A stretch of DNA of 64,000 nt from Tubulanus polymorphus (taxonomy: Eukaryota > Nemertea > Palaeonemertea > Tubulaniformes > Tubulanidae), in NCBI RefSeq assembly GCF_964204645.1, contig NC_134030.1:1343855-1407854 (forward strand), given 5' to 3'. A model generated the notes under the pieces. The model saw only the letters and a list, made by a program, of their open reading frames with translations. It searched no databases and was not told where the DNA came from. Below are positions 5,712 to 44,883 of this stretch, piece by piece (positions within the stretch are counted from its first letter, which is position 1; each line of letters opens with the position of its first letter). Made by a program: the position numbers and the translations under genes.

Positions 5712-5774
5712 ATGCCAAAAGCCACTAAGAAAACCCGGGGCGCGGGGCCCTCAACATCTAGCCCCTATAATAAA
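5712..5774 (+). CDS. Coding exon 1 (copy A)
   Basis: ATG immediately follows a TTTTTCTAG acceptor and the exon ends at AAA/GTAAGT. It has 21 codons, phase 0. An inverted paralogous exon at 30209-30271 has the same length and frame, with changes mostly at codons 5 and 20, which supports this reading frame. Confidence 0.7.
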
Positions 5775-6950
5775 GTAAGTACAAATTCACTGCTTCCATG
5801 CTTATTTATTCATCCCATACTTAGTATTTTGTACCCCTGGGTCCAGTTTCACAAAAAGGATTAACGCCTTAATCGATTTAAGATAAACTGAATTAATGAA
5901 GAAATTAAATCGATTTAAGAGTTAAACCTGTTTGTGAAACTAGGCCCTGAATTGCATCTAGAATGAAAAAAAAGAAAAAAAAATATTGAATATAACGTTG
6001 GTGAAATATTTCTGGATCTTTCTGGATTTCTGCTCAATGCATCGTTTAGTAAAATATCGATATTCTCTAAAAGTAAAGATATAAGAATAAAAATATTGTA
6101 TTGAATCGTGATTAGTTACTGTATGCGCTGCTAGTTGTTGCCCAACCCATAGCCTCATTTCTCTCCATTCTAAATTTGCATTGTTTAACATTGTCTGGTC
6201 GCTATGGAAACTATTTATTTAAGTTTCTTTGTTGTATCCATGGCAACAGTAACGTTTAGGTAGTGGCACCAATTATGGGTCCCAACGTTCCCATGGCGAT
6301 ACATGAGAACATTTATCCTATTTTTGACCTTCATGACGTAAGATGGTAGTGAGTCGATGACGTCATTTTCGTCTCACCACTAATGAAAAAAAAAATGAAA
6401 TGAAAAAAAAGGAAAAAATCGTTAGAATTACGTTTATGAAATTTTTCTGGATCGGCTAAATGTATTGTTCCATTAAATATCGACATTCTCTAAAATTATA
6501 GGCATCAATATCAAAATGATGATACAGCAGACTCCGCTTAACTCTGTTCTATTTGGACCATTAATTAACCGAATACCAACTTTTTAAAATTTTAGGATTT
6601 TAACTTTAAGGATCAGAAAATGTGTATGCAATTTCAACCGGGTACCGAGTAGGGTGGCCGAGTCTACTGTAGTCTGCTGCCCCCTCGAATCCATTACCTT
6701 ATTATCTCTCAATTTGCATTGTTTGACCTCGTCTGGTTGCTATGGAAACTATTTAGTTATATCAGGAACGGTTTTTTCGAGGTAACCAGTGGCAACATTT
6801 AACAGGCGTGTCCGTCCTAGAGATAAACTGTCTGATTTCACAGCCACATCCGTCCTGGAGATAAACTGTTAGATAAACTCTGATTTCGCGTCTGTCCTAT
6901 TTCTTGTCATTGTATGAATATGTTTTCTCTTTTATAGGGTACAGCGCAGC

Positions 6951-6987
<37 letters not shown>

Positions 6988-9900
6988 GCAACAACAACAA
7001 CAAAAATTTGATATTTCTATGTCCGGAATAGACGTAAGTTATCGTAAACGCCTGTTTGAAGTCATCATTCTTGAGCTTGAAACCGAAATTTATATTATAG
7101 AATATTAAACCCTGCTTCTGCTACTGACAGGTAATGTCCGTCATACATTACTGCATCGTCAAATCTATACCAGGGTGCACCCAGGCAGATCGTTCGCATC
7201 ATCACATGCAAAGGGCTGATTATTTTGGAACCCAGTTTTTATCAGCTGGAACATTCTGCACATTCGACCATATTGATTGATAGCCCGTTATAGACGAGTG
7301 GAGAAAAACTGAAAAACCAGTTCGGAAAAACTTCGATTGATTTCACTCACATTTACAGAAATTTGGTCCGACCCCAAAACCATTTACTTACACTATACAA
7401 ATCAGATCAGGTTTTTAACATTGTCTTTGATTGTATTTTCAGTTTTTACCGACAACGCCGCCCAGTGGTGTTTCGACGCCGGTAAGTGATAACTATTTTC
7501 TAATAAATCACGCTTATTTCAATTTGTAATTTGAAAATAGAGGGTAGTAGCTGTTATGTATAAATTATGCTAATTAGGAATAAATTCAAATTCGATTAAG
7601 TCTCATCATCGTAGAAGTCATATATTAATGATGCTATCTCTAAAGTTGTCATTTAAATTAAGTGTTATATTTACTACTTCATTTGCTTCATGACCCAAAA
7701 ACCTCTACTATATAGCTACTGGTTTTGTTCTAATCTTGGAGAATTTGCTGCAAAATTTACTTATCATTTGTTAAACAGTTTTTATTGAAAACCTGAATCA
7801 GTGATACATGCATTCATGAATATCCATCTAATATTTTGTTTTATTTTATCTTTACAGGATTTATCACCGATACAGCACGTGGACGTAAGAGATTAAACAT
7901 TGATCTTGAATTTTAAGTTCAAACTAATTTATTTTTTATCTCACTCGGGACTATAGTTATTGCGTTCACTTTGCGTCCAGTTGTCTCGGGTAGTTTTTGA
8001 TTTATCGTGTTGATAATTGGTTTATATACTCAAACTCAAAATATCGGCGCAATTGGAATTAAGATGGCGCACTTGTATGTCCATTTTTTTCCCCGGCAAA
8101 ATTAGCACTTTAGCAGATTTTAAGGATCAATTCTGTTGTTATATTACATTGAAATCAGAGTTTAATATATATCGGTATAGAGCAGATTTTTGCTCTAGTT
8201 ATAAATAAAGTTATAAATAATCTCATGACATGTTCTGTATATGTGTAGTGAGTTTCAATGTCTTTGGTTCCTTTTAAACCAGGGGGAGTTAAATTTGAAA
8301 ATGTCAGATCGTCGAGCATTTCAGACCGCATCCAAAGTGGGTCCCTGCACCCCTAGTTATACCGTTAATATTTTAATAATACATTAATATTTTTATTTGA
8401 TAGAATATATTGATATACCATACATTGATATCGGTCTTGTAATTGGATCAACAACCATGAGATCAAAACACAGCAAATATGAACCTGCTGTGAATCAATA
8501 GATTTGTGATAAATGTAATGAAATTGTTATTTTTCATATTGACTTTTTGAGTTAAGGGTCTGTTGTATAAGAGTCTTTGGTCTCGCGTGTCAATGTATGA
8601 TATCAATCTGTTGTATTTCCTCGTTCCAATGTTTAAAAGGTGTTCGTCACCTTATATTAATAAACTACTTTAACCGTTAGATGGCGCCATAAGTGTGATA
8701 TTTGATTTATGGGATACCCGCAAAACCAGCTATTCCACCAGATGGCGCAACGAGTAGTAGGTCGTTCGTTGTCAAAATTAGTTCATTTTCGATGAACTTT
8801 GAACTGGTTTGAAGAAGAAATACTTTCATTCTTCTACTCTGATATCGATTTAGTTTTCATTAATAATTGATTCATTTAAGAGAACAATTCATTCAGATTT
8901 AATTGAAATGTACAAGAAAATCGAACGCAGACGACCAACTATTTACTAGCGACACCTGGTGGATCCTCGCCTGCCATAAGTGGAATCCTCGATTGCCACA
9001 GTAAGACTGCGGGTATCCCATTGTTTGGCGTGTGAAGTAAAGTAAAGTTAGAAAACGGATGTTTAACTTTGTTGTGAAACGAAAGCGTTTTGGAGATTTT
9101 TAAACCAATCAAATCAATATTTTGATATTACGCTTGAAACCCTTCTCACTCATATTCTACTTACTAAGTATATATTCTTGTTTCTGTGGAAATCATGGTG
9201 AGTGGCGCCATCTATACAGTGGAGTTAGCTTTATAAATCGAGCTTGCTTCGACAAGTGGCTCCATCTATTCCCTAATACTGAAGCGAGGTAACCAGCAGC
9301 GCCCTCATATACAGGAAATGAACGCCTATCAAGTTTAACAATGCACGGTGTATTGACCACAGCGACCGGTGATAATTATATCAATGTTGATTAGCTATTG
9401 CCATAGACAGGTCCGTAGCGTTTGACTGGACCAGAACGGGGCCCCCTAACCAAAACAAATTTTGAAAACGTGCCCAGATAAATTGCCTCTGGGAGATTGA
9501 TTTAACGAGGTTTTGATTAAATGAACAAATTTTAATATTTGTAAGTTTAACATTTCTGTTTTTAATTTTTCTTTGCGAGGAACTGAATTTTCGAACCCCC
9601 CCGAACCGCCTCAAGCTATGTTCCTGATATAGTGCTAGCTATACCTGAATACTTTTCTCTTATTGAAATTGTCTAAAAAACCAGCACCTTGAACTAATGA
9701 ACGTCATAATGAAAATGTTTAAAAATTCAACCGTTAATGAATTTGACTAATGTATTTTTTTTATTTTCATTTCTAGCGTCAGTTTGCCTCAGAGGCAAGG
9801 TCGCCGTCGCTTAATGTAAGTATCAGTGACGCCCTCAATCTCACATGCCTCACTTCCCTCCTAATGTAACCATTTTTATGAAATTCCTCAAGAAAATATA

Positions 9901-12900
9901 TACTAGTAATCTTAGAATACACGTTTTTGTACCCAGACCCCTTCATTCTACTGAACTACCGTGTAATAAGTGCCTGTTGTGTTCATTTTCTGTTGCATTG
10001 ATTTATATATTATTTCTATTTACAGTTGTCAAACAACAGCAGCAGCAGCAACAGCAGCAGCAGCGCACCCCTCCCGCCGGAGACGCCTCCCGACTTGCAA
10101 GCAAGAAGTAAGTTCAGTCTTCAAATACAATTTCAACGCATTCAATTTTTTGTATGGCGTTAAAACGGTTAAAGTTGTGACTAGTTTTCATAACTCCGTG
10201 ACGTCATATTTCCATCGAGTACCGGACCCTTTCCTATGTTTTTTGCCAATTTGGATTGAATGATCGCCAGCGGTTTTTCTATACGACCCGGCTCTGCTGT
10301 ATTGCATTTAGCCATCCTTTTTCTTGGCGTTTTTTATAAGAAGGTGTTTGATTTTGTCTCTAAGGGATTTAGGAATTTAAGAGACACTTGTACTTTCTAT
10401 GCAGTGAGTTTGTTCTGTTTTTGTTCCCTCGTGAATTTTATTTTTGTTTGAATCAAATCAAATCAGTGCATCTTTCTTGAATTGCGTGTATGTTATAATA
10501 TTATGTAAGTTATAACGTTAAAATATCTGTTATATTTAAACCGAATATTTAATTGTTGTATTTTGAATGCGATAATGCCGCTCCCTGCTAAAGTCCAGCG
10601 TCGTCATCGTGAGGGATGCGGTCATCTGTTCGGGCCCTGATTACGTTCTGTGTTCATCCTGTTGGGCTACATCGGGCGTTATATGAGTTAATCCTTCCTC
10701 GACTTGCGGATTGTGGTCGGAAGATCTATGGGTTCGGGCCGATAAGTCCCGGAAACAGAAAGTACAGTTTCTGCCGATGTGCCCATTGATGTCTCTATTT
10801 CAGAACATCACAGCGGTCGCCGGCTGTACAAGCACGGTCGGCTTCCCAACTCCTTTCTCTGAGGAGGATCGCTGGTTCTCTAGTAACGGTCAGTCACCAG
10901 TCAATCAACGGTTCAGCTGGTTCAGTTTCCCAGGTATCGGCGCGGGACAGTCGGGATACCTGCACAGGAACTCAGGTCCGGTCCGGGCTACTCCGAGCAC
11001 CGGTCCGGTCCAGGCCTCACTGGGTAATGAACATCTGGTCCGGTCCGGGCGGCTTCGAGCACCGGTCCGGTCCAGGCATCACCAGATACTGAACATCCTG
11101 TCCAGTCAGCTCCGTGCACCGGTCCGGTCCAGGCATCACCGGGTACTGAACATCTGGTCCGGTAGCTTCGAGAACTGGTCCGGTCCAGGCATCACCGGAT
11201 ACTGAACATCCTGTCCGGTCAGCTCCGTGCACCGGTCCGGTCCAGGCATCACCGGATACTGAACATCTGGTCCGGTCAGCTTTGAGAACCGGTCCAGGCA
11301 TCACTGGGTACTGAACATCTGGTCCGGTAGCTTCGAGAACTGGTCCGGTCCAGGCATCACTGGGTACTGAACATCTGGTCCGGTAGCTTCGAGAACTGGC
11401 CTGGTCCAGGCATCACCGGGTACTGAACATCTGGTCCGGTCAGCTCTGTGCACCGGTCCGGTCCAGGCATCACCAGTTACTGGTCCGGTCCGGGCAGCTT
11501 TGAGCACCAGTCCATTCCAGGCATCACTGAGTACTGAACATCCAGTCTGGTCCGGTCCAGGCAACACCGGGTACTGATCATCCAGTCCGGTCCGGTCCAG
11601 GCATCACTGGGTACTGAACATCTGCTCCGGTAGCTTCGAGAACTGGTCCGGTCCAGGCATCACCGGGTACTGAACATCTGGTCCGGTAGCTTCGAGAACT
11701 GGTCCGGTCCAGGCATCACCGGGTACTGAACATCTGGTCCGGTAGCTTCGAGAACTGGTCCGGTCCAGGCATCACCGGGTACTGAACATCTGGTCCGGTA
11801 GCTTCGAGAACTGGTCCGGTCCAGGCATCACTGAGTACTGAACATCCAGTCTGGTCCGGTCCAGGCATCACCGGGTACTGATCATCCAGTCCGGTCCGGT
11901 CCAGGCATCACTGGGACTGAACATCCAGTCTGGTCCAGTCCAGGCATCACCGGGTACTGATCATCCAGTCCGGTCCGGTCCAGGCATCACCGGGTACTGA
12001 ACATCCAGTCTGGTCCGGTCCAGGCATCACCGGGTACTGAACATCCAGTCTGGTCCGGTCCAGGCATCACCAGTTACTGAACATCCAGTCCGGTCCGGTC
12101 CAGGCATCACCGGGTTCTGATCATCCAGTCCGGTCCGGTCCAGGCATCACCGGGTACTGAACATCCAGTCCGGTCCGGTCCAGGCATCACTGGGTACTGA
12201 TAATCCAGTCCGGTCCGGTCCAGGCATCACTGGGTACTGAACATCCAGTCTGGTCCGGTCCAGGCATCACCGGGTACTGAACATCCAGTCTGGTCCGGTC
12301 CAGGCATCACTGGGTACTGAACATCCGGTCCGGTCCGGTCCGGTCCAGGCATCACCGGGTACTGAACATCCAGTCCGGTCCAGTCCAGGCATCACCGGGT
12401 ACTGAACAGGGTTCGTCGCGGTGCTTGAAAAGCTTGAAATGGCTTGAATTTGAAAAATACTACTCAAGCGCTTGAAAACAGCTTGAAAATAGATCGAAAG
12501 CTTGAAATAATTATTTTTGACTTGAAATAAAAAGTTATGGCTTGAAATGCTTGATTATCACAAATTTTCTTCTTCACGAATTTTTTTCGATGAAATCGCA
12601 GACAGAATATGTTCTTGAGTTGTTTCTACGCGTGCGTCATGTTTTAGGCATCAATAAAGAAATTAATTGAATTGTATTGAATCGCTATGAGGCTCTTGTG
12701 GTGAAACTCTACGGTGTCTGGAGACATGAACATACGGGGAAATTTCAGTCATGCATGTTATCGAGCATTGATGTAAAATGGCATTGAAATCCCACACCAG
12801 GAGTGAGAGCCATGTTGAAGGCACAGCGACCTAGTCAAAGTCATTGAACATTACAAATTTCGTATTAGGCCATACAAAAATCAAGGTCTGTTTGCCGTCA

Positions 12901-15900
12901 TCCGACCGACCCGACTTCAAAGGTACCCAGTGGAAACTTTTTTCTTGGATTCATTGAAATAAATTGTATTTTTGATACAAATGGCCGACCCACTGCCGAT
13001 GTATGAGCTATGTATGTTTGAAGTTAAGTGTGCATCATGTGAAAACATGCCTCGACTATTTACTTGAAGTTTTCCAGGAAACTGGCAGTGTTCCAATAAG
13101 CTGCCATTCATTCTAAAGCTGGTAATGTTATAGCGTGCATATATTCAATCTACTGTTTCATTTTGAACGCAGATTTCGGATGTTGTTTCCGCTAAAAGTG
13201 GTGATGATAAATTTGTTGTTTTTTTTTGCCCCAAAATTTTGCAAAAAAAATGATGCTACCTTCCTACTGACTTATCCCAAAAATTTTAGTAGGTGTAACG
13301 GCAAAACAGACAATTAATTTGGGATGGCCAAATATCCAAATCTTGATTGATATGAATATTTAAGCTAGGAAATGCTGAAAATCATTGTGATGAACAGGTT
13401 TCATCTCTAACAGAATCGTATCAACTCGGAGGTTCCACTGGAATCAAAATTTTACCTCTTTTTTAACATTTTTATACGAACCTGTTCAAAATAGGCAAAT
13501 TGGCTGCGACTAACGAAAATTGCTTCCAACGTGCCTTAAAAAATAGCTTGAAAATGGTATAAATCTAGCTTGAAATGGCTTGAATTTCACCTGAGCTTGA
13601 GACAATGAACCCTGCTGAACATCTGGTCCGGTCAGCTTCCAGCACCGGTCCGGTCCAGGCATCACCGGTTACTGAACATCCGGTCCGGTCAGCTTCCAGC
13701 ACCGGTCCGGTCCAGGCATCACCGGTTACTGGTCCGGTCCGGGCAGCTTTGAGCACCGGTCCGGTCCAGGCATCACTGAGTACTGAACATCCAGTCCGGT
13801 CCGGTCAGCTCCGAGCACCGGTCCAGGCATCACCAGGTACTGAACATCTGGTCTGGTCCGGGCGGCCTGGCATCAATGTTTCGAATTTAAAACATAGTTA
13901 TCATGGCTCTAGGTTTGGTAGAGGGCGCTCTTCTACCAGATGCAGGAGCGAGGTCACCTTCACGGAGATCGAGATCGAGGGATTATGATTGATTCTGTAG
14001 GAACCATCATCATTCATCAGTTCAGGTCGAGGGACCGCTTAGGAAGTTCACGTCTTTCACGTCGAGGGACCGTTTAGGAAGTTCACATCTTTCACGTCGA
14101 GGGACCGTTTAGGAAGTTCACGTCTTTGACGTCGAGGGACCGTTTAGGAAGTTCACGTCTTTCACGTCGAGGGACCATTTAGGAAGTTCACGTCTTTCAC
14201 GTCGAGGGACCGTTAAGGAAGTCGTCACAATAATCAGGATTTCCGCGATTTCGAAAGTCAGATTTTAAACTTGTTATTGTCATTGTAAGCTACCGCAGTT
14301 ACAGGTAAGCCTATTCTTGATTGCCCGAGACAGGCGTGCAGATATTGTTCCCGACTTAAGTTTTTGGTTGATTTTCTTGTGACTTGTTTGTTTTAGGGGT
14401 GAGATGGATGAGCCTTATTGTTTTTTGACATATATAGGTCATCCAAGATGGCCGCCACAGCCATTACAATGTGTAAAATAGCCATTTTGAAGCTTGTGAC
14501 AACTCTACAATCTACAGTTTCAGACCAATTTGCCAATTACTTATTCTGTGGTTTCATAATGGTAGGAGAATGAGCCTTATTGTTTTTGACATATATAGGT
14601 CATCCAAGATGGCCGCCACAGCCATTTCAATGTGTGAAATAGCCATTTTGAAGCTTGTGACAACTCTACAATCTACAGTTTCAGACCAATTTACCAATTA
14701 CTTATTCTGTGGTTTCATAATGGTAAGAGGATGAGCCTTATTGTTTTTGACATATATAGGTCATCCAAGATGGCCGCCACAGCCATTTCAATGTGTGAAA
14801 TAGCCATTTTGAAGCTTGTTACCGCTCTACGGACTTAAGTTTTAAGCTTAAGACTTAAGATGGCCACCACAGTTATATCAATGTCTTAAATCTTATCCGA
14901 TTTGGAGCTTGTTACTGCTCTAAGATGTAGAGGTTTAGAGGTTTATAATTTCATTCATACTTGTACTGTGGTTTATTTATGGTGGTCAGAGGATGAGACC
15001 TATTACAATTTGCATTCTCTACTTGACTCACTGGTCAAGGGTTAATATCTAGTTTGATAAATGTGATAAGCATGTCGGTGAATCACCCCCCCCCCCGGAC
15101 TCTGATCTCAATGTCTGATGTCAATCGTCAGCAGTTTCAATGGAATGGGCTCGATTAGGTGTGGAACAAGTGGAATCCTCGATTGCCACAGTCGAACCTA
15201 GAGTATTAAGAGCTCAATTAGGTTCTTCTTTGCGTCTCTTCTCCGGTTGGAGTGCTCCAGTTTCCACCGAATGGAGGAAGATTAGAGATGTGCAGATTCA
15301 AGTCCACCATGCGGACTCCGGCTCCGGCTCCGGCAGCTCAAGGTTCAGCCCGAACTCACACAATGCCATCTCAAGCATCCGTACTTTCTCAAGCGGCTAC
15401 TAATGCTGTTTGGAGAACAAGTGCACAGCTCCAACATTCTCGTGCCCCTTCTGGTCAGAATAATTCTAGTTCATATCGGGGAATGCTCCTAAAAGGAGCT
15501 CTTCCTCTCGGAGAAACTCAAAATGAATGCTCGGGGCCAGTGAGAGGTTGTCTATAACGAGCAGCCACCTACTGATCCGGCGTTCCCGGGTCGTATCACG
15601 GCGGCTACTGTCTTCAATTCTGAACACCTCCCGACATGCGCCCGAAAGCAGGTCACGAGACACTAATCTCGTCAGCTCTCAAAGATCTGGCCAAAAAGAG
15701 AGCAATAGAACCAGTACGGGACGAAGCCTCATCCGGCTGGTTTTCATGAATATTTATGCTCCTGAAGACCACAGGGCGTCGATGGACTGTCATTCCTCGA
15801 GCGGCACCTGGATATCCCGAGGCTTCCGATGACTAAAACAGGGAGGTAATTCAAGGTCTCCGCCGAGGTTAATGGGCGGCTTCATTGGACCTGAAAGATG

Positions 15901-18900
15901 TCAGGTTCCTATTCACCCGAAATCTCATCAATAAACCATTTTACAGTTGCTAACCGCCATTTTGTTAGGGTACTTTTGTCCCGTATTGTTGGGTCATTTT
16001 TTTCTATTTTTTAAAAACTATCCGTAATGCGTGTTGTATCATATTTCATCTGTCCATGGATGGATTTTGACAACTTCAGCAACATTCAAACCGCGTGAAT
16101 TTTTAGTTTTCAGTTATGTAAAAATCATTTCTCAAATTTACAACAATGCGACATGAGAGCGATATAAAAATCGGTGGTCAGTTTTTGCCGTGCGCATAGA
16201 AATCAAGGGTACTGAACTTTGAAGTTCGTTATTTTCAGAAATAATTTTCTAAAAAATCCAAGCATTTCAAGAACTGTGCGCATAAATGCCCCCTTTCAGG
16301 TGAACTTTGAAATTTTAAGATATCTTGCCTAGTTTTTTCCTATGGCACTTTAACTGCAGCGCGTGTATTGTCATTCCGAGATTCGGCGCTGTTTTCTTTG
16401 CGTGTATTTCAGTATATGGGTGTTATTTTTTCATTTTTACTACACTTGTCTCTACGGAAAATGGTTTTAATTGTTGGTACGAGTATCAGGTTTTAATATT
16501 ACGTCATTTATGCAATATAATAGATCGAAGACATTAGAGATGTTGGAGTTTAAGGGATTTTTTACCAGTTTTAGCAGCGAGACTGAACGGCATTTTGATC
16601 ACGCATTCGAAGTTGCGCGCGGGAAGAGAATATATGGGCCTATATTGAGATGGAAGAAGAAAAGAAATATAACACTCAAAATCGAGTATGATGACCATTT
16701 AAATCAGTAGTCTATCAATAAATTTACATAAAAATCTACTGAAATTAGATGGATTGAGAAGTGGTCAAAAAGCTGGACAAATGGGTTGGGGCAAATATTC
16801 AGCTACTTTCTATGAATACTTTCTATTAAGTACACACAAGATTGATTAGATTGGGAAGAAAATATAGGAAAACGTTTTCTTGCTTTGGTGGTGAAATATC
16901 AAGTATCATGTCCTAATGTCAGACACAGGTGATAAAAAGTAAAAAGTGACATCTACCATCACAAAATCGCAAGAAGTGTGTGGATTGCATTTACAACAAA
17001 AGAGTGATATTTTGGGTTTTCTTGGGTGCATGTACGTAAGCCTCTGCCTGCTGTAAAAGCGGCTACCAATACAGCCATTACGAACTAGCGCCGGAGAACG
17101 GAATACAGTATTAATGCCGTAATATTAAAACCTGATACTCGTACCAACAATTAAAACCATTTTCCGTAGAGACAAGTGTAGTAAAAATGAAAAAATAACA
17201 CCCATATACTGAATTACACGCAAAGAAAACAGCGCCGAATCTCGGAATGACAATACACGCGCTGCAGTTAAAGTGCCATAGGAAAAAAACTAGGCAAGAT
17301 ATCTTAAAATTTCAAAGTTCACCTGAAAGGGGGCATTTATGCGCACAGTTCTTGAAATGCTTGGATTTTTTAGACAATTATTTCTGAAAATAACGAACTT
17401 CAAAGTTCAGTACCCTTGATTTCTATGCGCACGGCAAAAACTGACCACCGATTTTTATATCGCTCTCATGTCGCATTGTTGTAAATTTGAGAAATGATTT
17501 TTACATAACTGAAAACTAAAAATTCACGCGGTTTGAATGTTGCTGAAGTTGTCAAAATCCATCCATGGACAGATGAAATATGATACAACACGCATCACGG
17601 ATACTTTTTAAAAAATAGAAAAAAATGACCCAACAATACGGGACAAAAGTACCCTAACAAAATGGCGGCTAGCAACTGTAAAATGGTTTATTTCACAGAA
17701 TGAAGTGGAAACGCCGCCAGTTCCAGTTCAGGTCTCTTCCAGTCGGCCTCAGTACAGCCCACGCCCTGGGTATTTACCAGCTTGGGTCAAGTCCAGAAGG
17801 TACACTACACTCCAGGGCTGGGTTTCATAGATATGGAAGAAAAATAATTCCAGGGAACATTTTGAAATTTGTCAGTTATAACCATGGTTTCTCATTGTTA
17901 GTATGGTGGTTGAGGATTTATCCCTTTGGATAACTTTGATACTCAGTCTATGAAACCGGGTCCTGGAGTATTTGTCTGTTGGTTTACCTCGACGACTGGT
18001 TACTAGTACCAAACTCGACTATAGAATGTCAGGAGGCGGTGACCGCTGTCGACCGCTGTCGTAGACTTAGTTCACCAGTTCCGCGTAAACTAAGTAAAAT
18101 CTCACTTGATGCCGTCCCAACAGTTCACATCTCCGGATCAGCACGGTCTTTCCGTCCATGGCTCGAGTAGCCAAACTTCAAGAAGCGTAGTTACCACAAA
18201 CGAGAGGACAGCTAGTTATCGGTGACGCCTGTGGCTAAATGCAATACCGCAGTGCCAGGGGTCGTATCTCTGGCTATCTACACATTCAGAGAATATTAAC
18301 TAAAACCATAGGAAAGGGTCAAGCACTACTCCGAAAAAAAACTAATTTTATTTCCAAAAAATTACGATATTATATGGATTGCATGCTGTGTGGAAGAAGT
18401 TTTCAAAATTATTTAGGAGCTTATTATAATTTGAATACATGAATTGAGAGCAATTTGAAATGTGTTGATATCCGAAAGTGTTTCCATTGACTTCACTCAT
18501 TCACCTGATGAAGCTTCTATACATTAGTACCCAAAGCTTGTGTGTCAAATAAACTAGTTACACGTCCTATAAAGTACTACTTGTCTCGTTATATATTCTA
18601 AACCCCAGTTAACAATTCCAGTAAGTCAGGTTTAGGGAATAGATATTTAAACCTTCAGATGAAACCGATGTGATACAATTCCAGTAAGTCAGGTTTAGGG
18701 AATAGATATTTAAACCTTCAGATGATACCGATGTGATACAATTCCAGTAAGTCAGGTTTAGGGAATAGATATTTAAACCTTGAGATGAAACCGATGTCAT
18801 ACAATTCCAGTAAGTCAGGTTTAGGGAATAGTTATTTAAACATTCAGATGAAACCGATGTAATACAATTCCAGTAAGTCAGGTTTAGGGAATAGATATTT

Positions 18901-21537
18901 AAACCTTCAGATGATACCGATGTCATACAATTCCAGTAAGTCAGGTTTAGGGAATAGATATTTAAACCTTCAGATGATACCGATGAATTTAGCAATTTTG
19001 AATGAATTAAACCAATATGAGATTTCGATCCTAAGAATATTGGAAGCTTGTGTTTAACGTTACTAAATAGTAATATTATATAAAGCTAGAAGGACACGAG
19101 CGTATCCATTTTTTTGCCCGATCGCGACGATTAAATTCGCTGGTGAATTTATACGCCCGATACGAGTGGGTACCGATCTATTTATAAATCGGCCATCACG
19201 GTGATTTCGTCGCCCGCCGACATTAAACATGTTCGATATTTACGCCGGTGTTCAGGTCACTTGTTAATTCGCTCGTCTTGTCGGCAAGCTTAAAAAGATT
19301 TAGAAAAAACTACAAATTCTCATTCCTGAATGAACTGGATTCATCTGGGTTCAGTTTCATGAGACTCAGTTCAAACTGCTCTAGAATTTGAGTTTGTAAT
19401 TAATGTATGTGATTATAATGAATTGTATTTTTTGTTTTACAGCTTTGGCATTTCGGTTAAGTCGTGCGTTCCGGCGGGAGGAGTTTGTACGTTTGTTTCT
19501 CCCGGAGTGTAAGTAGTTTAACTATTTTCATACAATATCATTTAGTGTGACGTATGTCACTGATAATCAAAATCTAATAATAACTGTTGATCCGTAGTAT
19601 TAACATTGTGCAATTGAAATCCTATAGTTGTTTTTAGAAAGGATAAATGGCGCCATCAATGTGACAATCGATTGTAAAGTTTAAGAAATGAATGTTTAAC
19701 CTCGCCGAGTACCAGAATTCTTAACCGTAGCATCGAAACCATTCGACTTGTTGTTTAATGTATTTCTCTCTATTTTTATTTTACAGTGATGATCATTTTA
19801 CAAGACTGCCCGTTTGGGGACTTGGTGGGGGAATTCAAAAGAAACTTGGTTCCCGATAGGATACCACCACCGGTTAATCCTATGTCGCCCGCTGCTGCCC
19901 CTCCCCAAAATCCGATAAATTCGCCTCAGCAGCGGCCTGTCAGACAGCCGCCCCCGGCCGCCACTCGTTCGTCAGACAGAGTCCGGGGACGGCTGTTTGA
20001 AGGAGATCTGACGGAGGTAAGAATCTTTATTTGTTTTCATATTTTATTCAGGATATCAGTTGAAGTTCAGCAAATAAATTACCAGACCTGTAAACAGAAG
20101 AGTAGTCATAAATTTCCATTTGCGGGTAAAACCCCATAGTCGAAAACCTTCGGTTATTGATCTATATCTGCTTAAGACCAATGGTTGTACACACGAGTGC
20201 GAAAACTTATCGCTCAAACTTTGATTGTATCCATGGTAACGCGTACAGTATACTATGCGTGACTTACCGTTTCCTATCACTGGAATACAATACTGTTTTA
20301 GACCATGAGCGCCATCTGCGGCGGTCATAACGGACTGAGTGGTGATTGGCTGAAATGCTCGTCTACCGTGGTGACGATTATTCGGTGTTACACGTGCAGC
20401 AGACACGTCTCTGAATATCTAACATTTGATTGTTGTAACTCATCGGGAAAAATATGTTTATGAGTCGATTTTTTGTCGAAATTTTGTTCGGCAGAAAATT
20501 GGCTGCGTACGTCAAGAAGGCGGCTGATATTTGTATCGTGTGACCCCTCGTCCCGGTAATATGCCGACCCACGTACACCTGAGACCAGTTGCAGAGCTTA
20601 GAATTAAGACCGTTTTAAGACCAACTTAGTTCTATAGCCAATCTAATAACTTAAGACCAGTCTTTAGATTTAAGACCACTTTTGGACTTATGTCTTGACC
20701 ATGGAATCGGCCCCAGATGCTTATTCCGCTGTATTGGATGCTGACGTGCTCGTGTCTTCCAGCAATGTTGTTATTCACCAAAAATATCATGTTTTGTTCG
20801 AATAACACGATTCATCTGAGTCTGGGTTTAACGGATGACACGTTCAAACAGAACTACGAAATCAATATCAGAAGTCCTTTTATATTGAAACGGTCCCAGA
20901 AGTCCCTGTTATAATGGGTACTTTTTCAAAAAAAGTAACGAGAACTCCGATGGCTTTCCGTATCGGTAAAAACTAACTATTTCTATGAGCGTCACTCGTA
21001 GATTTACCGAAACGCCACCTTGTGACACGATATCCTAACTACGTATAGGTGTTTTATTTGCTGAATCGCTGGTTTCTCATTCTCATTTTTTAAACTTGTG
21101 TTTAATTTTATACTAAACAAATTTTTCACTTTTTCTCTTTACAGACACGACCACCGCCAAAAAAAACTAGAACAAAAAGGAAAAGAAAAGTTGCGGTCGT
21201 CGTGGCTCCGCAGGGAGGAGGAGCAAGAGTGGTCCCGGCGGATGGTGCGGCTGACGAAGGTAATCGGGAGGAAGGGGAGGGGATAAATAGGAAGCGGCCG
21301 AGGAGGGATGGTGGTGGGGCTGGGGATGGTGCGGGTCCTGCTCCTCCTGCTCCTCCATCCGTATCTCGGGCGGTCACTCGTTCACTCGCCAAAAAGCTGG
21401 CGAGTGAACGAGTGGCCCGAGAGGTAGAGGTGGTGGCCCGACATACGGATGGAATGTGGGAGGAGCGGCTTCGTTCGGGGACAATTCCGGATTTGTTAAC
21501 TGATTTAAAAAATATTCTTTCAGTGAAGGGATATTAG
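5712..21537 (+). CDS. Nine-exon gene, copy A: 344-aa polyQ/Pro-rich basic protein of unknown family
   Basis: Joining 5712-5774, 6938-7033, 7443-7481, 7858-7884, 9777-9815, 10026-10107, 19443-19508, 19787-20016 and 21145-21537 gives one open frame. Every intron has a good GT..AG pair (mostly GTAAGT) and the phases match (0,0,0,0,0,1,1,0). Residues 1-21 are basic (MPKATKKTRG start); 25-43 polyQ; 54-88 short Pro/Ser/Thr-rich exons; 93-101 Ser-rich; 117-137 Arg/Leu-rich (LAFRLSRAFRREEF); 139-214 begins MIILQDCPFGDLVGEF, then Pro-rich; 220-229 KKTRTKRKRK resembles a nuclear localisation signal; the C-terminus is Gly/Arg-rich with an amphipathic tail. No signal peptide or membrane segment is seen. 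A nuclear role is inference only. I do not recognise the family. Intron 6 (over 9 kb) is filled with satellites and transposons. Confidence 0.7.
5836..5950. mobile_element. Foldback MITE (about 115 bp), copy A
   Basis: The ends GGGTCCAGTTTCACAAA and TTTGTGAAACTAGGCCC are imperfect inverted repeats. The stem continues inward to a shared CGATTTAA core, so nearly the whole element can fold back. No coding. The equivalent in B is 40684-40798. Confidence 0.65.
5962..6800. repeat. Direct duplication inside intron, second copy split by a MITE
   Basis: A segment running from poly-A rich sequence through TTTCTGGATC, TAAATATCGA and TTTGCATTGTTT to GCTATGGAAACTATTTA occurs at about 5962-6290 and again, diverged, at about 6382-6800. 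The second copy is interrupted by the element at 6525-6669. Confidence 0.6.
6525..6669. mobile_element. Tc1/pogo-like MITE with TA target duplication, copy A
   Basis: Inverted ends CAGCAGACTCCGC and GCCGAGTCTACTG (11 of 13 matching when paired), flanked by TA on both sides, 145 bp, noncoding. TIRs of the CAGnAGACTC type with TA duplications are typical of pogo/Tigger-like nonautonomous elements. Confidence 0.6.
6938..7033 (+). CDS. Coding exon 2 (copy A): polyglutamine
   Basis: The acceptor TTTTATAG and donor GAC/GTAAGTT bound 32 codons: GTAQ, 18 further Gln codons (CAA with one CAG), then KFDISMSGID. The repeat is in frame and one codon longer than in copy B, as expected of a coding CAA tract. 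Confidence 0.75.
7443..7481 (+). CDS. Coding exon 3 (copy A)
   Basis: A 39 nt microexon reading FLPTTPPSGVSTP, phase 0 at both ends, bounded by GTATTTTCAG and GTAAGTG. Copy B differs at seven bases here (FLPSTPPSGSSTP), four of them synonymous, while the introns on both sides differ by about one base each over the adjoining 50 bp. Confidence 0.75.
7858..7884 (+). CDS. Coding exon 4 (copy A), 27 nt microexon
   Basis: Reads DLSPIQHVD between TCTTTACAG and GTAAGAG, phase 0. Identical in copy B. Confidence 0.65.
7885..9776. other. Intron after coding exon 4 (copy A)
   Basis: 1.9 kb, no coding exon found. It contains the 313 bp MITE (8709-9021) and several GATGGCGCCA-type short motifs (8681, 9203). 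Copy B lacks about 25 bp of an AT-rich stretch near 8375. Confidence 0.55.
8709..9021. mobile_element. 313 bp MITE with perfect 14 bp inverted ends, copy A
   Basis: ATGGGATACCCGCA at 8709-8722 is the exact reverse complement of 9008-9021. The interior holds CCACCAGATGGCGC near the left end and ACCTGGTGGATCC near the right end, so the inverted ends extend imperfectly. No clear target duplication was seen. Noncoding. Confidence 0.65.
9777..9815 (+). CDS. Coding exon 5 (copy A)
   Basis: 39 nt reading RQFASEARSPSLN between TTTCTAG and GTAAGTATC, phase 0. Copy B has RQFASQRRSPSLN through three changes within six bases. Confidence 0.7.
10026..10107 (+). CDS. Coding exon 6 (copy A): polyserine
   Basis: 82 nt; acceptor ATTTACAG, donor AGAA/GTAAGTTC. 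It reads LSNN, a Ser tract (AGC codons), then APLPPETPPDLQAR and leaves one base, which joins CT of exon 7 to make Thr. The CAG/AGC run would be polyQ in the next frame, but only the Ser frame fits the phases on both sides. Copy B has one more codon. Confidence 0.65.
10108..10971. other. Start of intron 6 with open, possibly retroelement-derived stretch
   Basis: After the donor at 10108 the sequence is AT-rich until about 10560, then GC-richer with long open frames to about 10970 (164 codons from 10711, running into the minisatellite). One reading has GCGHLFGP followed, after a frame change, by DYVLCSSCW, a C-x2-C arrangement seen in gag-like proteins. This may be the 5' part of the DIRS-like remnant found downstream, but the link is weak. 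The exon 6 to exon 7 phase match makes it unlikely to be part of the gene. Confidence 0.3.
10972..12406. repeat. 40/56 bp minisatellite (CCGGTCCGGTCCAGGCATCA), copy A
   Basis: Units of 40 bp (AACATCCAGTCCGG start) and 56 bp (AACATCTGGTCCGGTAGC start) alternate in blocks and share the core GGTCCGGTCCAGGCATCACC. It is GC-rich against an AT-rich background. The frames open through it are a consequence of unit composition, not evidence of a gene. The array resumes at 13615 after a transposon. Confidence 0.92.
12407..13614. mobile_element. Nonautonomous hAT-like element (1.2 kb) inside the minisatellite, copy A
   Basis: The ends CAGGGTTC and GAACCCTG are exact inverted repeats, with CTGAA on both outer sides, which restores the array sequence if the element is removed. 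Both subterminal regions are packed with GCTTGAAA / TTCAAGC motifs (12420-12545 and 13545-13600), the kind of repeated short motif hAT transposases bind. The interior has no transposase frame; a 64-codon minus-strand frame at 12917-13111 has no recognisable motif. Assignment rests on ends and subterminal repeats. The 5 bp duplication is shorter than the usual 8 bp. Confidence 0.7.
13615..13865. repeat. Remainder of 40/56 bp minisatellite, copy A
   Basis: Continuation of the array after the hAT-like element, with GTCAGCTTCCAGCACCGGTC-type units. The copy B remainder is shorter (47978-48112). Confidence 0.85.
14026..14222. repeat. 35 bp tandem repeat, copy A (6 units)
   Basis: Unit GTCGAGGGACCGTTTAGGAA followed by GTTCACGTCTTTCAC; six copies, the last truncated. 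Copy B has eight (48273-48539). Confidence 0.92.
14399..14825. repeat. 161 bp tandem repeat with AAGATGGCCGCC motif, copy A
   Basis: About 2.6 units starting GATGAGCCTTATTG, each with CCAAGATGGCCGCCACAG, which is close to the YY1 core. A diverged relative (AAGATGGCCACCACAG) follows at about 14855. Copy B has about 1.6 units. Confidence 0.8.
15140..18200 (+). pseudogene. Decayed DIRS-like retroelement (gag-like and reverse transcriptase), copy A
   Basis: Reading across frameshifts and stops gives the motif order of a DIRS/Ngaro-type reverse transcriptase: KKRAIEPV (about 15700), WTVIPR (about 15783), SLDLKD (about 15883), then after an inserted element FQFRSLPVGLSTAHALGIY (about 17720) and the catalytic VYLDDWLLVP (about 17980; the YLDD box supplies the active-site Asp pair). 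Upstream open stretches at 15140-15560 are Ser/Gln-rich, as in ORF1/gag of such elements. Many stops and frame changes show it is dead. Split by the foldback element 15933-17689. No tyrosine recombinase was found. Confidence 0.65.
15933..17689. mobile_element. 1,757 bp foldback element with 571 bp inverted arms, copy A only
   Basis: Left arm 15933-16503 and right arm 17118-17689 are nearly perfect inverted repeats (ends AAACCATTTTACAG and CTGTAAAATGGTTT), separated by about 610 bp. AT flanks both ends. Copy B at 50089 reads CATCAATTTCACAG with a single AT, the precise empty site, so the target duplication is 2 bp. Open frames in the left arm and centre (16325-16710) match no family I know and no transposase motif was seen, so it is probably nonautonomous. 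Confidence 0.88.
18201..18611. other. Intron segment between retroelement relic and 63 bp array (copy A)
   Basis: AT-rich, no coding support. The 67-codon frame at 18239-18442 is not conserved in frame in copy B because of a single-A indel near 18344. Confidence 0.5.
18612..18992. repeat. 63 bp minisatellite, copy A (6 units)
   Basis: Unit begins CCAGTAAGTCAGGTTTAGGG; the period of 63 is a multiple of three, so long minus-strand frames exist (21-residue peptide repeat with SLNLTYWNC). Open frames also occur in a second register, and the array is within an intron, so coding is not supported. Confidence 0.92.
18993..19442. other. End of intron 6 (copy A)
   Basis: Positions 19100-19260 are CpG-rich with repeated CGCCCGA / GCGACGA motifs. 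No coding exon. It ends at the GTTTTACAG acceptor of exon 7. Confidence 0.45.
19443..19508 (+). CDS. Coding exon 7 (copy A)
   Basis: 66 nt between GTTTTACAG and GTAAGTAG, phase 1 in and out. It encodes LAFRLSRAFRREEF followed by VRLFLPE. Copy B differs at seven bases within 20 nt near the 3' end, with only one conservative change (Leu to Ile). Confidence 0.75.
19787..20016 (+). CDS. Coding exon 8 (copy A): Pro-rich
   Basis: 230 nt between TTTTACAG and GTAAGAATC. The split codon gives Leu, then MIILQDCPFGDLVGEF, a Pro/Ala/Gln-rich segment and SSDRVRGRLFEGDLTE. Copy B differs at ATC/AAC and TGC/TGT and in a 12-base block (CAAAATCCGATA versus CCACGTCCATTA). Confidence 0.75.
20017..21144. other. 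Last intron of gene copy A
   Basis: 1.1 kb. An open minus-strand frame of 116 codons (20056-20406) and others show no known motif and are read as chance. Positions 20590-20710 contain inverted-repeat-like TTAAGACC motifs and look like another small foldback repeat. Confidence 0.45.
21145..21537 (+). CDS. Terminal coding exon 9 (copy A): basic C-terminus
   Basis: Acceptor CTCTTTACAG; 130 codons and TAG. It starts TRPPPKKTRTKRKRKV, continues Gly/Arg/Pro-rich, then VTRSLAKKLASERVAREVEV, and ends NILSVKGY. It contains a perfect 16 bp inverted repeat (21375-21414), and its last codons form one arm of a second hairpin. An inverted relative lies at 32639-32971. Confidence 0.8.
   Translation, partial: TRPPPKKTRTKRKRKVAVVVAPQGGGARVVPADGAADEGNREEGEGINRKRPRRDGGGAGDGAGPAPPAPPSVSRAVTRSLAKKLASERVAREVEVVARHTDGMWEERLRSGTIPDLLTDLKNILSVKGY
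21375..21414 (+). other. Perfect 16 bp coding hairpin in exon 9 (copy A)
   Basis: CACTCGTTCACTCGCC at 21375-21390 is the exact reverse complement of 21399-21414, with an 8-base loop AAAAAGCT. It lies in frame and encodes part of VTRSLAKKLASERVA. In the inverted paralog (about 32732-32771) the stem has one mismatch. Confidence 0.9.
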
Positions 21538-30208: not shown

Positions 30209-30271
30209 TTTTTGATACGGGCTAGACGTTGAGGGGCCCGCGCCCCGGGTTTTCTTTAAAGCTTTTGGCAT
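30209..30271 (-). pseudogene. Inverted paralog of coding exon 1
   Basis: The reverse complement reads ATG after a TTTTTCTAG-like acceptor and 21 codons starting MPKALKKTRG, in the same frame as copy A exon 1. The donor is lost: the exon runs into AAAAAAGAAC instead of GTAAGT, and similarity stops there. The 47 bp satellite lies just upstream, as in the forward copies. Confidence 0.75.
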
Positions 30272-30340
30272 TATCTAGAAAAACAAGTAAAAATATTAAA
30301 TCATTTGAAAATATATCAGTCAGTCTTATTCTGGTTCAGT

Positions 30341-32638: not shown

Positions 32639-32971
32639 TCAAAACAAATCCGGAATTGTCCCCGAACGAAGTGGCTCCCTCCACTCTCCATCAGTATGCC
32701 GGGCCACCACCTCTACCTCTCGGGCAACTCGATCACTCGCCAGCTTTTTGGCGAGTGAACGAGTGACCGCCCGAGATACGGATGGAGGAGCAGGAGGAGC
32801 AGGACCCGCACCTGCCCCAGCCCCACCACCATCCCTCTTCGGCCTCTTCCTATTTATCCCCTCCCCTTCCTCCCGATTACCTTCGTCAGCCGCACCATCC
32901 GCCGGGACCACTCTTGCTCCTCCTCCCTGCGGAGCCACGACAACCGCAACTGGTACTTTTCGGTTTCTCAT
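32639..32971 (-). pseudogene. Inverted paralog of exon 9 (110 codons, own ATG)
   Basis: Minus-strand frame from ATG at 32971 (MRNRKVPVAVVVAPQGGG) closely follows exon 9 through VTRSLAKKLASDRVAREVEV to SGTIPDLF, then TGA. It lacks the KKTRTKRKRK cluster and the last 14 residues. The frame has stayed open with mostly conservative changes (R/K, E/D), so it may still be under constraint. No clear acceptor is seen upstream. It could be an exon of an inverted, rearranged gene copy or a decayed fragment. Confidence 0.6.
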
Positions 32972-40490: not shown

Positions 40491-40560
40491 CACTGAACCA
40501 GAATAAGACTGACTGATATATTTTCAAATGATTTAATATTTTTACTTGTTTTTCTAGAAG

Positions 40561-40622
40561 ATGCCAAAAGCTGTAAAAAAAACCCGGGCGTGGGGCCCTC
40601 AACATCTAGCCCCTATAATAAA
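40561..40622 (+). pseudogene. Coding exon 1 (copy B), one base short
   Basis: Codons 4-6 are changed at five of nine bases relative to copy A (GCCACTAAG to GCTGTAAAA), followed by the one-base deletion. The acceptor region also has an extra AAG before ATG. Confidence 0.65.
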
Positions 40623-40683
40623 GTAAGTACAAATTTACTGCTTCCATGCTTATTTATTCATCCCATACTTAGTATTTTGTACC

Positions 40684-40798
40684 CCTGGGTCCAGTTTCAC
40701 AAAAAGGATAAACGCCTTAATCGATTTAAGATAAACTGAATTAATGAAGAAATTAAATCGATTTAAGAGTTAAACCTGTTTGTGAAACTAGGCCCTGA
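40684..40798. mobile_element. Foldback MITE (about 115 bp), copy B
   Basis: Equivalent of 5836-5950. Confidence 0.65.
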
Positions 40799-41372
40799 AT
40801 TGCATCTAGAATGAAAAAAAAGAAAAAAAAATATTGAAAATAACGTTGGTGAAATATTTCTGGATCTTTCTGGATTTCTGCTCAATGCATCGTTTAGTAA
40901 AATATCGATATTCTCTAAAAGTAAAGATATAAGAATAAAAATATTGTATTGAATCGTGATTAGTTACTGTATGCGCTGCTAGTTGTTGCCCAACCCATAG
41001 CCTCATTTCTCTCCATTCTAAATTTGCATTGTTTAACATTGTCTGGTCGCTATGGAAACTATTTATTTAAGTTTCTTTGTGGTATCCATGGCAACAGTAA
41101 CGTTTAGGTAGTGGCACCAATTATGGGTCCCAACGTTCCCATGGCGATACATGAGAACATTTATCCTATTTTTGACCTTCATGACGTAAGATGGTAGTGA
41201 GTCGATGACGTCATTTTCGTCTCACCACTAATGAAAAAAAAAATGAAATGAAAAAAAAGGAAAAAATCGTTAGAATTACGTTTATGAAATTTTTCTGGAT
41301 CGGCTAAATGTATTGTTCCATTAAATATCGACATTCTCTAAAATTATAGGCATCAATATCAAAATGATGATA

Positions 41373-41517
41373 CAGCAGACTCCGCTTAACTCTGTTCTAT
41401 TTGGACCATTAATTAACCGAATACCAACTTTTTAAAATTTTAGGATTTTTACTTTAAGGATCAGAAAATGTGTATGCAATTTCAACCGGGTACCGAGTAG
41501 GGTGGCCGAGTCTACTG
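41373..41517. mobile_element. Tc1/pogo-like MITE, copy B
   Basis: Same element and same site as 6525-6669, so it was inserted before the duplication or haplotype split. Confidence 0.6.
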
Positions 41518-41788
41518 TAGTCTGCTGCCCCCTCGAATCCATTACCTTATTATCTCTCAATTTGCATTGTTTGACCTCGTCTGGTTGCTATGGAAACTAT
41601 TTAGTTATATCAGGATCAACGGTTTTTTCGAGGTAACCAGTGGCAACAGTTAACAGACGTGTCCATCCTAGAGATAAACTGTCTGATTTCACAGCCACAT
41701 CCGTCCTGGAGATAAACTGTTAGATAAACTCTGATTTCGCGTCCGTCCTATTTCTTGTCATTGTATGAATATGTTTTCTCTTTTATAG

Positions 41789-41801
41789 GGTACAGCACAG
41801 C

Positions 41802-41835
<34 letters not shown>

Positions 41836-41881
41836 GCAACAACAACAACAAAAATTTGATATTTCTATGTCCGGAATAGAC
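41789..41881 (+). CDS. Coding exon 2 (copy B)
   Basis: 31 codons, one Gln fewer than copy A; otherwise the same encoded sequence in the original frame. Confidence 0.65.
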
Positions 41882-42290
41882 GTAAGTTATCGTAAACGCC
41901 TGTTTGAAGTCATCATTCTTGAGCTTGAAACCGAAATTTATATTATAGAATATTAAACCCTGCTTCTGCTACTGACAGGTAATGTCCGTCATACATTACT
42001 GCATCGTCAAATCTATACCAGGGTGCACCCAGGCAGATCGTTCGCATCATCACATGCAAAGGGCTGATTATTTTGGAACCCAGTTTTTATCAGCTGGAAC
42101 ATTCTGCACATTCGACCATATTGATTGATAGCCCGTTATAGACGAGTGGAGAAAAACTGAAAAACCAGTTCGGAAAAACTTCGATTGATTTCACTCACAT
42201 TTACAGAAATTTGGTCCGACCCCAAAACCATTTACTTACACTATACAAATCAGATCAGGTTTTTAACATTGTCCTTGATTGTATTTTCAG

Positions 42291-42329
42291 TTTTTGCCGT
42301 CAACGCCGCCGAGCGGTTCTTCTACGCCG
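42291..42329 (+). CDS. Coding exon 3 (copy B)
   Basis: FLPSTPPSGSSTP; seven base differences from copy A in 39. Confidence 0.7.
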
Positions 42330-42699
42330 GTAAGTGATAACTATTTTCTAATAAATCACGCTTATTTCAATCTGTAATTTGAAAATAGAGGGTAGTAGCT
42401 GTTATGTATAAATTATGCTAATTAGGAATAAATTCAAATTCGATTAAGTCTCATCATCGTAGAAGTCATATATTAATGATGCTAAAGTTGTCATTTAAAT
42501 TAAGTGTTATATTTACTACTTCATTTGCTTCATGACCCAAAAACCTCTACTATATAACTACTGGTTTTGTTCTAATCTTGGAGAATTTGCTGCAAAATTT
42601 ACTTATCATTTGTTAAACAGTTTTTATTGAAAATCTGAATCAGTGATACATGCATTCATGAATATCCATCTAATATTTTGTTTTATTTTATCTTTACAG

Positions 42700-42726
42700 G
42701 ATTTATCACCGATACAGCACGTGGAC
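42700..42726 (+). CDS. Coding exon 4 (copy B)
   Basis: DLSPIQHVD, identical to copy A. Confidence 0.6.
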
Positions 42727-43524
42727 GTAAGAGATTAAACATTGATCTTGAATTTTAAGTTCAAACTAATTTATTTTTTATCTCACTCGGGACTATAGTT
42801 ATTGCGTTCACTTTGCGTCCAGTTGTCTCGGCTAGTTTTTGATTTATCGTGTTGATAATTGGTTTATATACTCAAACTCAAAATATCGGCGCAATTGGAA
42901 TTAAGATGGCGCACTTGTATGTCCATTTTTTTCCCCGGCAAAATTAGCACTTTAGCAGATTTTAAGGATCAATTCTGTTGTTATATTACATTGAAATCAG
43001 AGTTTAATATATATCGGTATAGAGCAGGTTTTTGCTCTAGTTATAAATAAAGTTATAAATAATCTCATGACATGTTCTGTATATGTGTAGTGAGTTTCAA
43101 TGTCTTTGGTTCCTTTTAAACCAGGGGGAGTTGAATTTGAAAATGTCAGATCGTCGAGCATTTCAGACCGCTTCCAAAGTGGGTCCCTGCACCCCTAGTT
43201 ATACCGTTAATATTTTAATAATATATTGATATACCATACATTGATATCGGTCTTGTAATTGGATCAACAACCATGAGATCAAAACACAGCAAATATGAAC
43301 CTGCTGTGAATCTATAGATTTGTGATAAATGTAATGAAATTGTTATTTTTCATATTGACTTTTTGAGTTAAGGGTCTGTTGTATAAGAGTCTTTGGTCTC
43401 GCGTGTCAATGTATGATATCAATCTGTTGTATTTCCTCGTTCCAATGTTTAAAAGGTGTTCGTCACCTTATATTAATAAACTACTTTTACCGTTAGATGG
43501 CGCCATAAGTGTGATATTTGATTT

Positions 43525-43837
43525 ATGGGATACCCGCAAAACCAGCTATTCCACCAGATGGCGCAACGAGTAGTAGGTCGTTCGTTGTCAAAATTAGTTC
43601 ATTTTCGATGAACTTTGAACTGGTTTGAAGAAGAAATACTTTCATTCTTCTACTCTGATATCGATTTAGTTTTCATTAATAATTGATTCATTTAAGAGAA
43701 CAATTCATTCAGATTTAATTGAAATGTACAAGAAAATCGAACGCAGACGACCAACTATTTACTAGCGACACCTGGTGGATCCTCGCCTGCCATAAGTGGA
43801 ATCCTCGATTGCCACAGTAAGACTGCGGGTATCCCAT
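43525..43837. mobile_element. 313 bp MITE, copy B
   Basis: Same element, site and 14 bp inverted ends as 8709-9021. Shared by both large copies. Confidence 0.65.
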
Positions 43838-44591
43838 TGTTTGGCGTGTGAATTAAAGTAAAGTTAGAAAACGGATGTTTAACTTTGTTGTGAAACGAAA
43901 GCGTTTTGGAGATTTTTAAACCAATCAAATCAATATTTTGATATTACGCTTGAAACCCTTCCCACTCATATTCTACTTACTAAGTATATATTCTTGTTTC
44001 CGTGGAAATCATGGTGAGTGGCGCCATCTATACAGTGGAGTTAGCTTTATAAATCGAGCATGATTCGACAAGTGGCTCCATCTATTCCCTAATACTGAAG
44101 CGAGGTAACCAGCAGCGCCCTCATATACAGGAAATGAACGCCTATCAAGTTTAACAATGCACGGTGTATTGACCACAGCGACCGGTGATAATTATATCAA
44201 TGTTGATTAGCTATTGCCATAGACAGGTCCGTAGCGTTTGACTGGACCAGAACGGGGCCCCCTAACCAAAACAAATTTTGAAAACGTGCCCAGATAAATT
44301 GCCTCTGGGAGATTGATTTAACGAGGTTTTGATTAAATGAACAAATTTTAATATTTGTAAGTTTAGCATTTCTGTTTTTAATTTTTCTTTGCGAGGAACT
44401 GAATTTTCAACCCCCCCGAACCGCCTCAAGCTACGTTCCTGATATAGTGCTAGCTATACCTGAATACTTTTCTCTTATTGAAATTTTCTAAAAAACCAGC
44501 ACCTTGAACTAATGAACGTCATAATGAAAATGTTTAAAAATTCAACCGTTAATGAATTTGACTAATGTATTTTTTTTATTTTCATTTCTAG

Positions 44592-44840: not shown

Positions 44841-44848
44841 TTGTCAAA

Positions 44849-44883
<35 letters not shown>

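Follow-up and report, generated by a model that had tools for sequence, protein, structure and literature searches.

The process named ASSET (accelerated segment switch in exons) has been described for viperid three-finger toxin genes, in which the introns of paralogues are alike and some exon segments are distinctly different (PMC2474615, PMC2711939); as the first of these reports presents it, the segments are thought to be exchanged, and the switches are said to alter the protein surface (PMC2474615). In the primate L/M opsin genes, introns are described as homogenised by conversion and exons as protected (PMC3213168, PMC3924837). Segmental gene conversion is reported for ves1 of Babesia bovis (PMC7485966), and mosaic VSGs for Trypanosoma brucei (PMC3708902).

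By analogy, the pattern that we describe here in Tubulanus polymorphus resembles both toxin segment switching and protected opsin exons, and it appears to be set apart from them by its excess of silent change and its scale. As in the ASSET genes of those reports, introns are conserved, and some exon segments are distinctly different while others are alike; unlike the switches described there, however, those found here do not mainly alter the protein (pN/pS is about 0.2 in exons 1 and 7), although exon 5 and the start of exon 8 do change residues; much of the variation is silent, and the units form large arrays. With the opsin genes as reported, the family shares a divergence between paralogues of a tandem family that is greater in exons than in introns, and a divergence peak at selected sites, but the opsin accounts concern two gene classes, whereas here there are tens of copies on three contigs, with mosaics within single exons. 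Similarly, in the accounts of ves1 and the VSGs, as in this family, mosaic genes are built from segments of related copies, and partial copies lie elsewhere; the differences are that the changes here are largely silent and that a flow from donor to recipient is unproved.

Gene family and its copies

We searched the 268-Mb genome (77 contigs) starting from the window, which is the whole 64,000-nucleotide stretch analysed (C6:1343855-1407854), and identified a gene family of nine exons, present in at least 28 copies across three contigs (C3, C6 and C8), two units of which are copies A and B of the window. An intron 1 probe matched at least 28 full-length places at 88-100% identity (40 of 58 candidates scored), 18 of them on C6, 9 on C3 and 1 on C8, and a 421-nt exon 9 probe matched at least 29 places at 99-100% identity (40 of 88 candidates scored), with 18, 10 and 1 on the same contigs, all of these counts being lower bounds. 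More weakly related exon 7-8 sequences occur on C8, C9, C11 and C12. Family matches lie 0.4 to 3.0 Mb from the contig start on C3, C6 and C11, and at 13.9 to 16.4 Mb of the 16.7 Mb on C8; a position near chromosome ends is only suggested by these places.

Copy A, on the forward strand, has canonical splice sites and a single open frame of 344 codons plus a stop, and its predicted protein is rich in glutamine, serine and proline, with basic stretches. The protein family was not recognised in Pfam, which returned two matches only, both far below the cut-off, and a comparison with the PDB gave one match (E 0.91); protein searches with residues 110-185 (15 candidates) and residues 190-344 (5142 candidates) gave no match. 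An Rfam scan of the window returned 0 matches.

The first coding exon found, exon 1 (5712..5774; MPKATKKTRGAGPSTSSPYNK), is hypervariable. It is followed by exon 2 (6938..7033), which carries a CAA/CAG glutamine repeat and varies at its ends and in the repeat; exon 3 (7443..7481), hypervariable and mostly synonymous; exon 4 (7858..7884), identical in 20 of 22 copies; exon 5 (9777..9815), with a single short variable block that changes amino acids; and exon 6 (10026..10107), whose variation is mainly in CAG repeat length. Exon 7 (19443..19508) has a nearly invariant core between two variable blocks, exon 8 (19787..20016) varies in its first ~60 nt and in a block at codons 40-43 and is uniform in the remainder, and exon 9 (21145..21537), the target of the 421-nt probe, includes the stop codon. 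This stop codon lies within a near-perfect hairpin (21515-21600; -45.9 kcal/mol, z -10), a stop-free form of which, read from the letters, is present in fragment cluster L109. Upstream of the gene are a 2-kb T-/G-rich array with a 19-base unit (2342-4356) and, directly before exon 1, a 47-bp repeat array of 26 copies (4406-5641). In most other copies, an extra codon (AAG, ATA, AAT or ATT) stands between the exon 1 acceptor AG and the ATG, at the place of 5709-5711, and its variability is like that of coding codons.

Copy B (40558..57702, forward strand) has all nine exons as in A: exons 1-3 at 40558-40622 (one base missing), 41789-41881 and 42291-42329; exons 4-6 at 42700-42726, 44592-44630 and 44841-44925; and exons 7-9 at 54098-54163, 55946-56175 and 57310-57702. 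The base lost from its exon 1, in a CCCGGGG run, causes a frameshift that is the sole frame break among the 22 copies checked through exon 8; the other 21 are open from exon 1 through exon 8, and splice sites, which were checked for exons 1-6, are intact. The copy sets comprise 28 copies for exon 1, 22 for exons 2-6 (21 in codon counts) and 29 for exons 7 and 8. The first half of one C3 copy, with exon 8 at 1279338, was not located, which accounts for 28 rather than 29 in exon 1, and copy B was dropped from the codon counts of exons 1-6 because its frame is broken.

Divergence between copies A and B

The preliminary description had reported that A and B diverge in blocks restricted to exons, and our comparison confirms these blocks, with counts that are correct within a few bases of span. 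From exon 1 to exon 6, 18 of 342 aligned exon bases differ versus 37 of 4553 intron bases (0.8%), a contrast with a Fisher p of 1.3e-8. There are 5 changes in 7 bases in exon 1, 7 of 39 bases are changed in exon 3, and exon 5 has 3 changes in 5 bases; the 7 changes of exon 7 all lie in codons 14-19, and exon 8 has 5 in codons 40-43, plus two nearer the exon start. Exons 4 and 9 are almost unchanged, as had been noted, with 0 of 27 and 1 of 393 bases differing, this being the only pair compared letter by letter in exon 9. The earlier figure of about 1-2% for intron difference does not simply hold for introns 6 and 7, which contain large indels. Among the 23 comparable changed codons, 12 are silent and 11 are non-silent, a count that uses codons 1-9 of exon 1 and leaves out exons 2 and 6, whose lengths differ.

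Introns 6-8 were compared whole only between A and B, where the large indels misalign the exon 7/intron 7 stretch. Within the tandem repeats of intron 6, a few windows of 20 bases (starting at 12060, 18780 and 18840) contain 3 changes each. A segment of 1759 bases in intron 6 of A (15932-17690) is missing in B, and its ends, judged from the letters, look mutually inverted, in the manner of a foldback element. Intron 7 of B-type copies contains an interspersed repeat (54326..54669) with similar stretches on several other contigs.

Exon and intron diversity across copies

Twenty-two copies were aligned from exon 1 into the beginning of intron 6. The most diverse exons are 1 (0.132), 3 (0.128), 2 (0.077) and 5 (0.055); the values for exon 4 (0.0135) and exon 6 (0.014) are close to that of the introns (0.0141 over 4604 sites). 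Three or more alleles are present at 13 of 346 exon sites versus 3 of 4604 intron sites. For instance, 20 of the 66 columns of exon 1 are variable, 9 of them with three or more alleles, while in its flanks 5 of 120 columns are variable and none has that many. Exons 1, 3 and 5 are jointly more divergent than the introns in 227 of 231 copy pairs. Seven pairs differ by less than 0.3% in their introns; two of these are without differences in exons 1, 3 and 5, and the other five differ there by 2.8-8.5%.

Of 133 intron windows of 30 bases in the 22 copies, 1 is as divergent as the exon blocks, exceeding a diversity of 0.06 (value 0.147). This window (7310-7339, with its neighbour to 7369) turned out to be a non-homologous segment in the six C3 copies. 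In exons 1, 7 and 8, the first variable position is exon base 1 or 2, and the 30 intron bases preceding exon 8 are invariant among 29 copies. Uniformity close to that of the introns is seen in exon 4, in exon 9 and over most of exon 8, an observation that argues against both polishing with RNA reads and mutation across whole exons.

Silent and amino-acid-changing variation

In exon 1 (27 copies), pS is 0.359 and pN 0.080; the corresponding values are 0.329 and 0.042 for exon 3 (21 copies) and 0.229 and 0.039 for exon 7 (29 copies). This corresponds to the pN/pS of about 0.2 in exons 1 and 7, and in all three exons silent divergence is 16-25 times intron divergence, in copy sets that differ slightly; given this level, the exon variants look old or fast. 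In exon 3, seven codons show silent-only variation and one an amino-acid change among the 21 copies. The values for exon 2 (0.386 and 0.029, 21 copies) are weak evidence, because its synonymous diversity comes partly from the CAA/CAG repeat and the uncertain alignment of that repeat. The other pS and pN values are 0.017 and 0.013 in exon 4, 0.043 and 0.055 in exon 5, 0.079 and 0.050 in the first 84 nt of exon 8 (29 copies), and 0.008 and 0.012 in its last 144 nt, after codon 28 (29 copies).

Residue changes are relatively commoner in exon 5 and at the start of exon 8, and in exon 5 and the first codons of exon 8 the variation is mainly amino-acid changing. Codon 5 of exon 1 encodes T, N, M, V, I or L, and Q in two further C3 copies, and all four bases occur at two wobble sites of the same exon. 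When codons are grouped by their distance to the nearest amino-acid variable codon, mean silent diversity per site is 0.17-0.21 in the 146 that lie no more than 8 codons away and 0.000-0.004 in the 27 at greater distances, although the rank correlation of silent diversity with this distance is weak (Spearman -0.17, p 0.02); exon 9 was not included in this analysis.

Mosaic structure of exons

Exon 1 is a mosaic. Among 27 genes, which carry 20 exon 1 types, 87 of 276 pairs of variable columns are incompatible, placing recombination or repeated mutation in at least 8 intervals, and the halves of this exon occur in 28 genes as 21 combinations of 19 first and 12 second halves. Distances in exon 1 agree loosely with those in introns (Spearman 0.36, 120 C6 pairs), and copy C6:1539 combines a B-like exon 7 with an A-like exon 8 start. 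The interpretation in the preliminary description is thus supported in part: the family is diversified and multi-copy, its exons are mosaic, and its short tracts look templated by related copies, but no donor is proved.

Gene fragments and tandem units

Partial copies, which are possible donors, are present apart from the genes as opposite-strand fragments. A search with an exon 1-like pattern gave 38 forward and 98 reverse matches, against 1 and 0 for a control pattern. In the window, an exon 1 fragment with its upstream flank lies on the reverse strand (30209..30314), and a partial exon 9 copy on the same strand (32643..32961) is 94% identical over 319 bases. The exon 1 fragment adjoins an inverted 47-bp array of 32 copies, which stands before it at 30343-31846. 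An 8.4-kb cluster at C6:1331600-1340000 holds, in the orientation opposite to the genes, pieces of exons 1, 2, 5, 6, 7, 8 and 9; in this one cluster that was read, exon 3 was not represented.

The variation of the genes recurs in the fragments, and the same pattern of blocks at the same places, with silent excess and mosaics, is found on C3, C6 and C8. In 17 of 21 fragments, the ~40 bases leading up to the exon match those of the genes completely or almost so, despite differing exons. Whole exon 1 of a gene is carried by 2 of the 21 aligned fragments and at least one half is common to 5 of the 21; some 29-nt exon 1 matches are found among the matches listed (100 of 136 places). Chicken immunoglobulin genes exemplify conversion from donor cassettes, and a fixed donor library was set aside here as unproved on these counts. 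Systems of the Dscam kind use tandem alternative exons; considered as intact alternative exons of that type, 12 of the 21 exon 1 fragments keep both splice sites and the frame, and 9 do not.

Exon 1 is fused to exon 2 exactly at the splice junction in fragments at C3:552k and C6:1049k (2 of 20 separately fetched) and in one more in the C6:1331.6-1340.0k cluster. Intron 2 follows the fusion in the C6:1049k and cluster fragments, and only its first bases follow in C3:552k. In the same cluster, exon 5 runs directly into exon 6, flanked by the adjoining genuine ends of introns 4 and 6. Such fused exons would fit spliced templates and also an ancestral state without the introns.

A locus on C8 consists of six tandem units of the exon 8 start, in which 15 of 45 block columns are variable versus 4 of 75 right-flank columns (126 differences in 675 block comparisons versus 23 in 1125 flank comparisons). 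Non-synonymous differences number 24 of the 126 and all lie within the first 15 nt, while the last 30 nt have 11 variable sites, every one of them silent where random changes would be silent at 21%, and encode one identical peptide. The splice acceptor is missing from four of the six units, and the 127-nt spacing of successive units within an array shifts the frame; such units are probably not readable as exons, and their silent pattern was therefore probably copied from coding sequence, which would make it the strongest sign of templated exchange. Another C8 copy (15639), judged from its letters, combines the left portion of one unit type with the right portion of a second. The intron differences found in the C8 relatives less than 30 bases ahead of exons 7 and 8 occur in none of the 29 genes.

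Possible explanations

The best explanation, to which we give an even chance, is that the units are homogenised by concerted evolution, with islands of old coding diversity that persist among them and move about as short templated patches. Whole-unit duplication and ectopic gene conversion would keep the introns, exons 4 and 9 and most of exon 8 near-identical, and a pool of non-homogenised coding variants, many of them protein-preserving, would persist at fixed places, namely exons 1, 2, 3, 5 and 7 and the start of exon 8. These variants would travel between copies by templated exchange, in patches of very roughly 10-60 nt, and A and B would differ in blocks because the variants move in this way. 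Gene conversion as the mechanism of exchange, resistance of mismatch-rich blocks to homogenisation, and selection on a few residues as the force that keeps the blocks apart are our inferences. Several observations fit less easily. Conversion alone leaves diversity in exons but not introns unaccounted for, so residue selection must be added, and such selection fits poorly with C8 units whose last 30 nt encode the same peptide. For ordinary conversion, at least 8 intervals in ~66 columns would be a very high density, and recurrent changes at wobble sites could produce the same apparent recombination intervals in exon 1. The fragments that share a whole exon 1 (2 of 21) or at least one half (5 of 21) prove no donor, and silent diversity shows a weak rank correlation with the distance to the nearest amino-acid change.

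The limit to exons would be accounted for most directly if gene repair were templated by transcripts of diverged members, spliced in full or in part and acting as RNA or cDNA, since spliced templates would exchange only exon sequence and leave introns untouched. The exact exon 1-2 and exon 5-6 fusions, the onset of variation at exon base 1 or 2 in exons 1, 7 and 8, the variant-free 30 intron bases before exon 8, and the absence from 29 genes of the C8 relatives' intron differences near exons 7 and 8 all point in this direction. We nevertheless regard such patching as rather unlikely: patches are absent from exons 4 and 9 and the 3' part of exon 8, which argues against a general process, the fused exons could be ancestral and predate intron gain, and intron ends hardly differ among copies, so that tract ends would be invisible there. 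That family transcripts repeatedly rewrite short coding patches by RNA-templated repair, with largely silent scrambling and most of the protein held, seems to us unlikely.

Diversifying selection on the protein, as in venom multigene families, with introns homogenised, would explain the mainly amino-acid changing variation of exon 5 and the first exon 8 codons and the many residues at codon 5 of exon 1, Q included. In its simple form we set it aside on pN/pS, which is about 0.2 in exons 1 and 7, and the seven silent-only codons of exon 3 against one amino-acid changing codon likewise make it decidedly unlikely. We consider it improbable that hypermutation is aimed at short exon blocks while purifying selection removes amino-acid changes: exon 1 is private to most copies (20 types in 27 genes) and all four bases occur at two of its wobble sites, but the variation of the 30-nt block is silent-only even in C8 units without a splice acceptor, alleles are common to, and recombined among, copies, and adjacent, equally coding stretches are far less variable.

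Selection at the nucleotide level, by which silent changes would let genes escape small RNAs from the opposite-strand fragments, agrees with the silent excess and with fragments of exons 1, 2, 5, 6, 7, 8 and 9, but is highly improbable because exon 9 hardly varies although its fragments exist, and exon 3 varies with no fragment in the one cluster read. There is very little likelihood of an assembly or polishing artefact, to which the one-base loss in the CCCGGGG run of B might point, because the frame is unbroken from exon 1 through exon 8 in 21 of 22 copies, whose exon 1-6 splice sites are intact, and the polishing with RNA-derived reads raised in the preliminary description would hardly leave exons 4 and 9 and the 3' part of exon 8 untouched or make fragments and C8 units vary alike. 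Protein diversification alone, in-place mutation, small-RNA escape and artefact are all less likely than concerted evolution with surviving islands of old coding diversity.

Significance

Silent exon sites are expected to evolve at about the speed of introns. In this family, they reach up to ~25 times intron divergence, at fixed places in the gene and across tens of copies. The family is a natural system in which to measure very short ectopic exchange, and one in which to ask whether spliced RNA can template exchange in the germ line.
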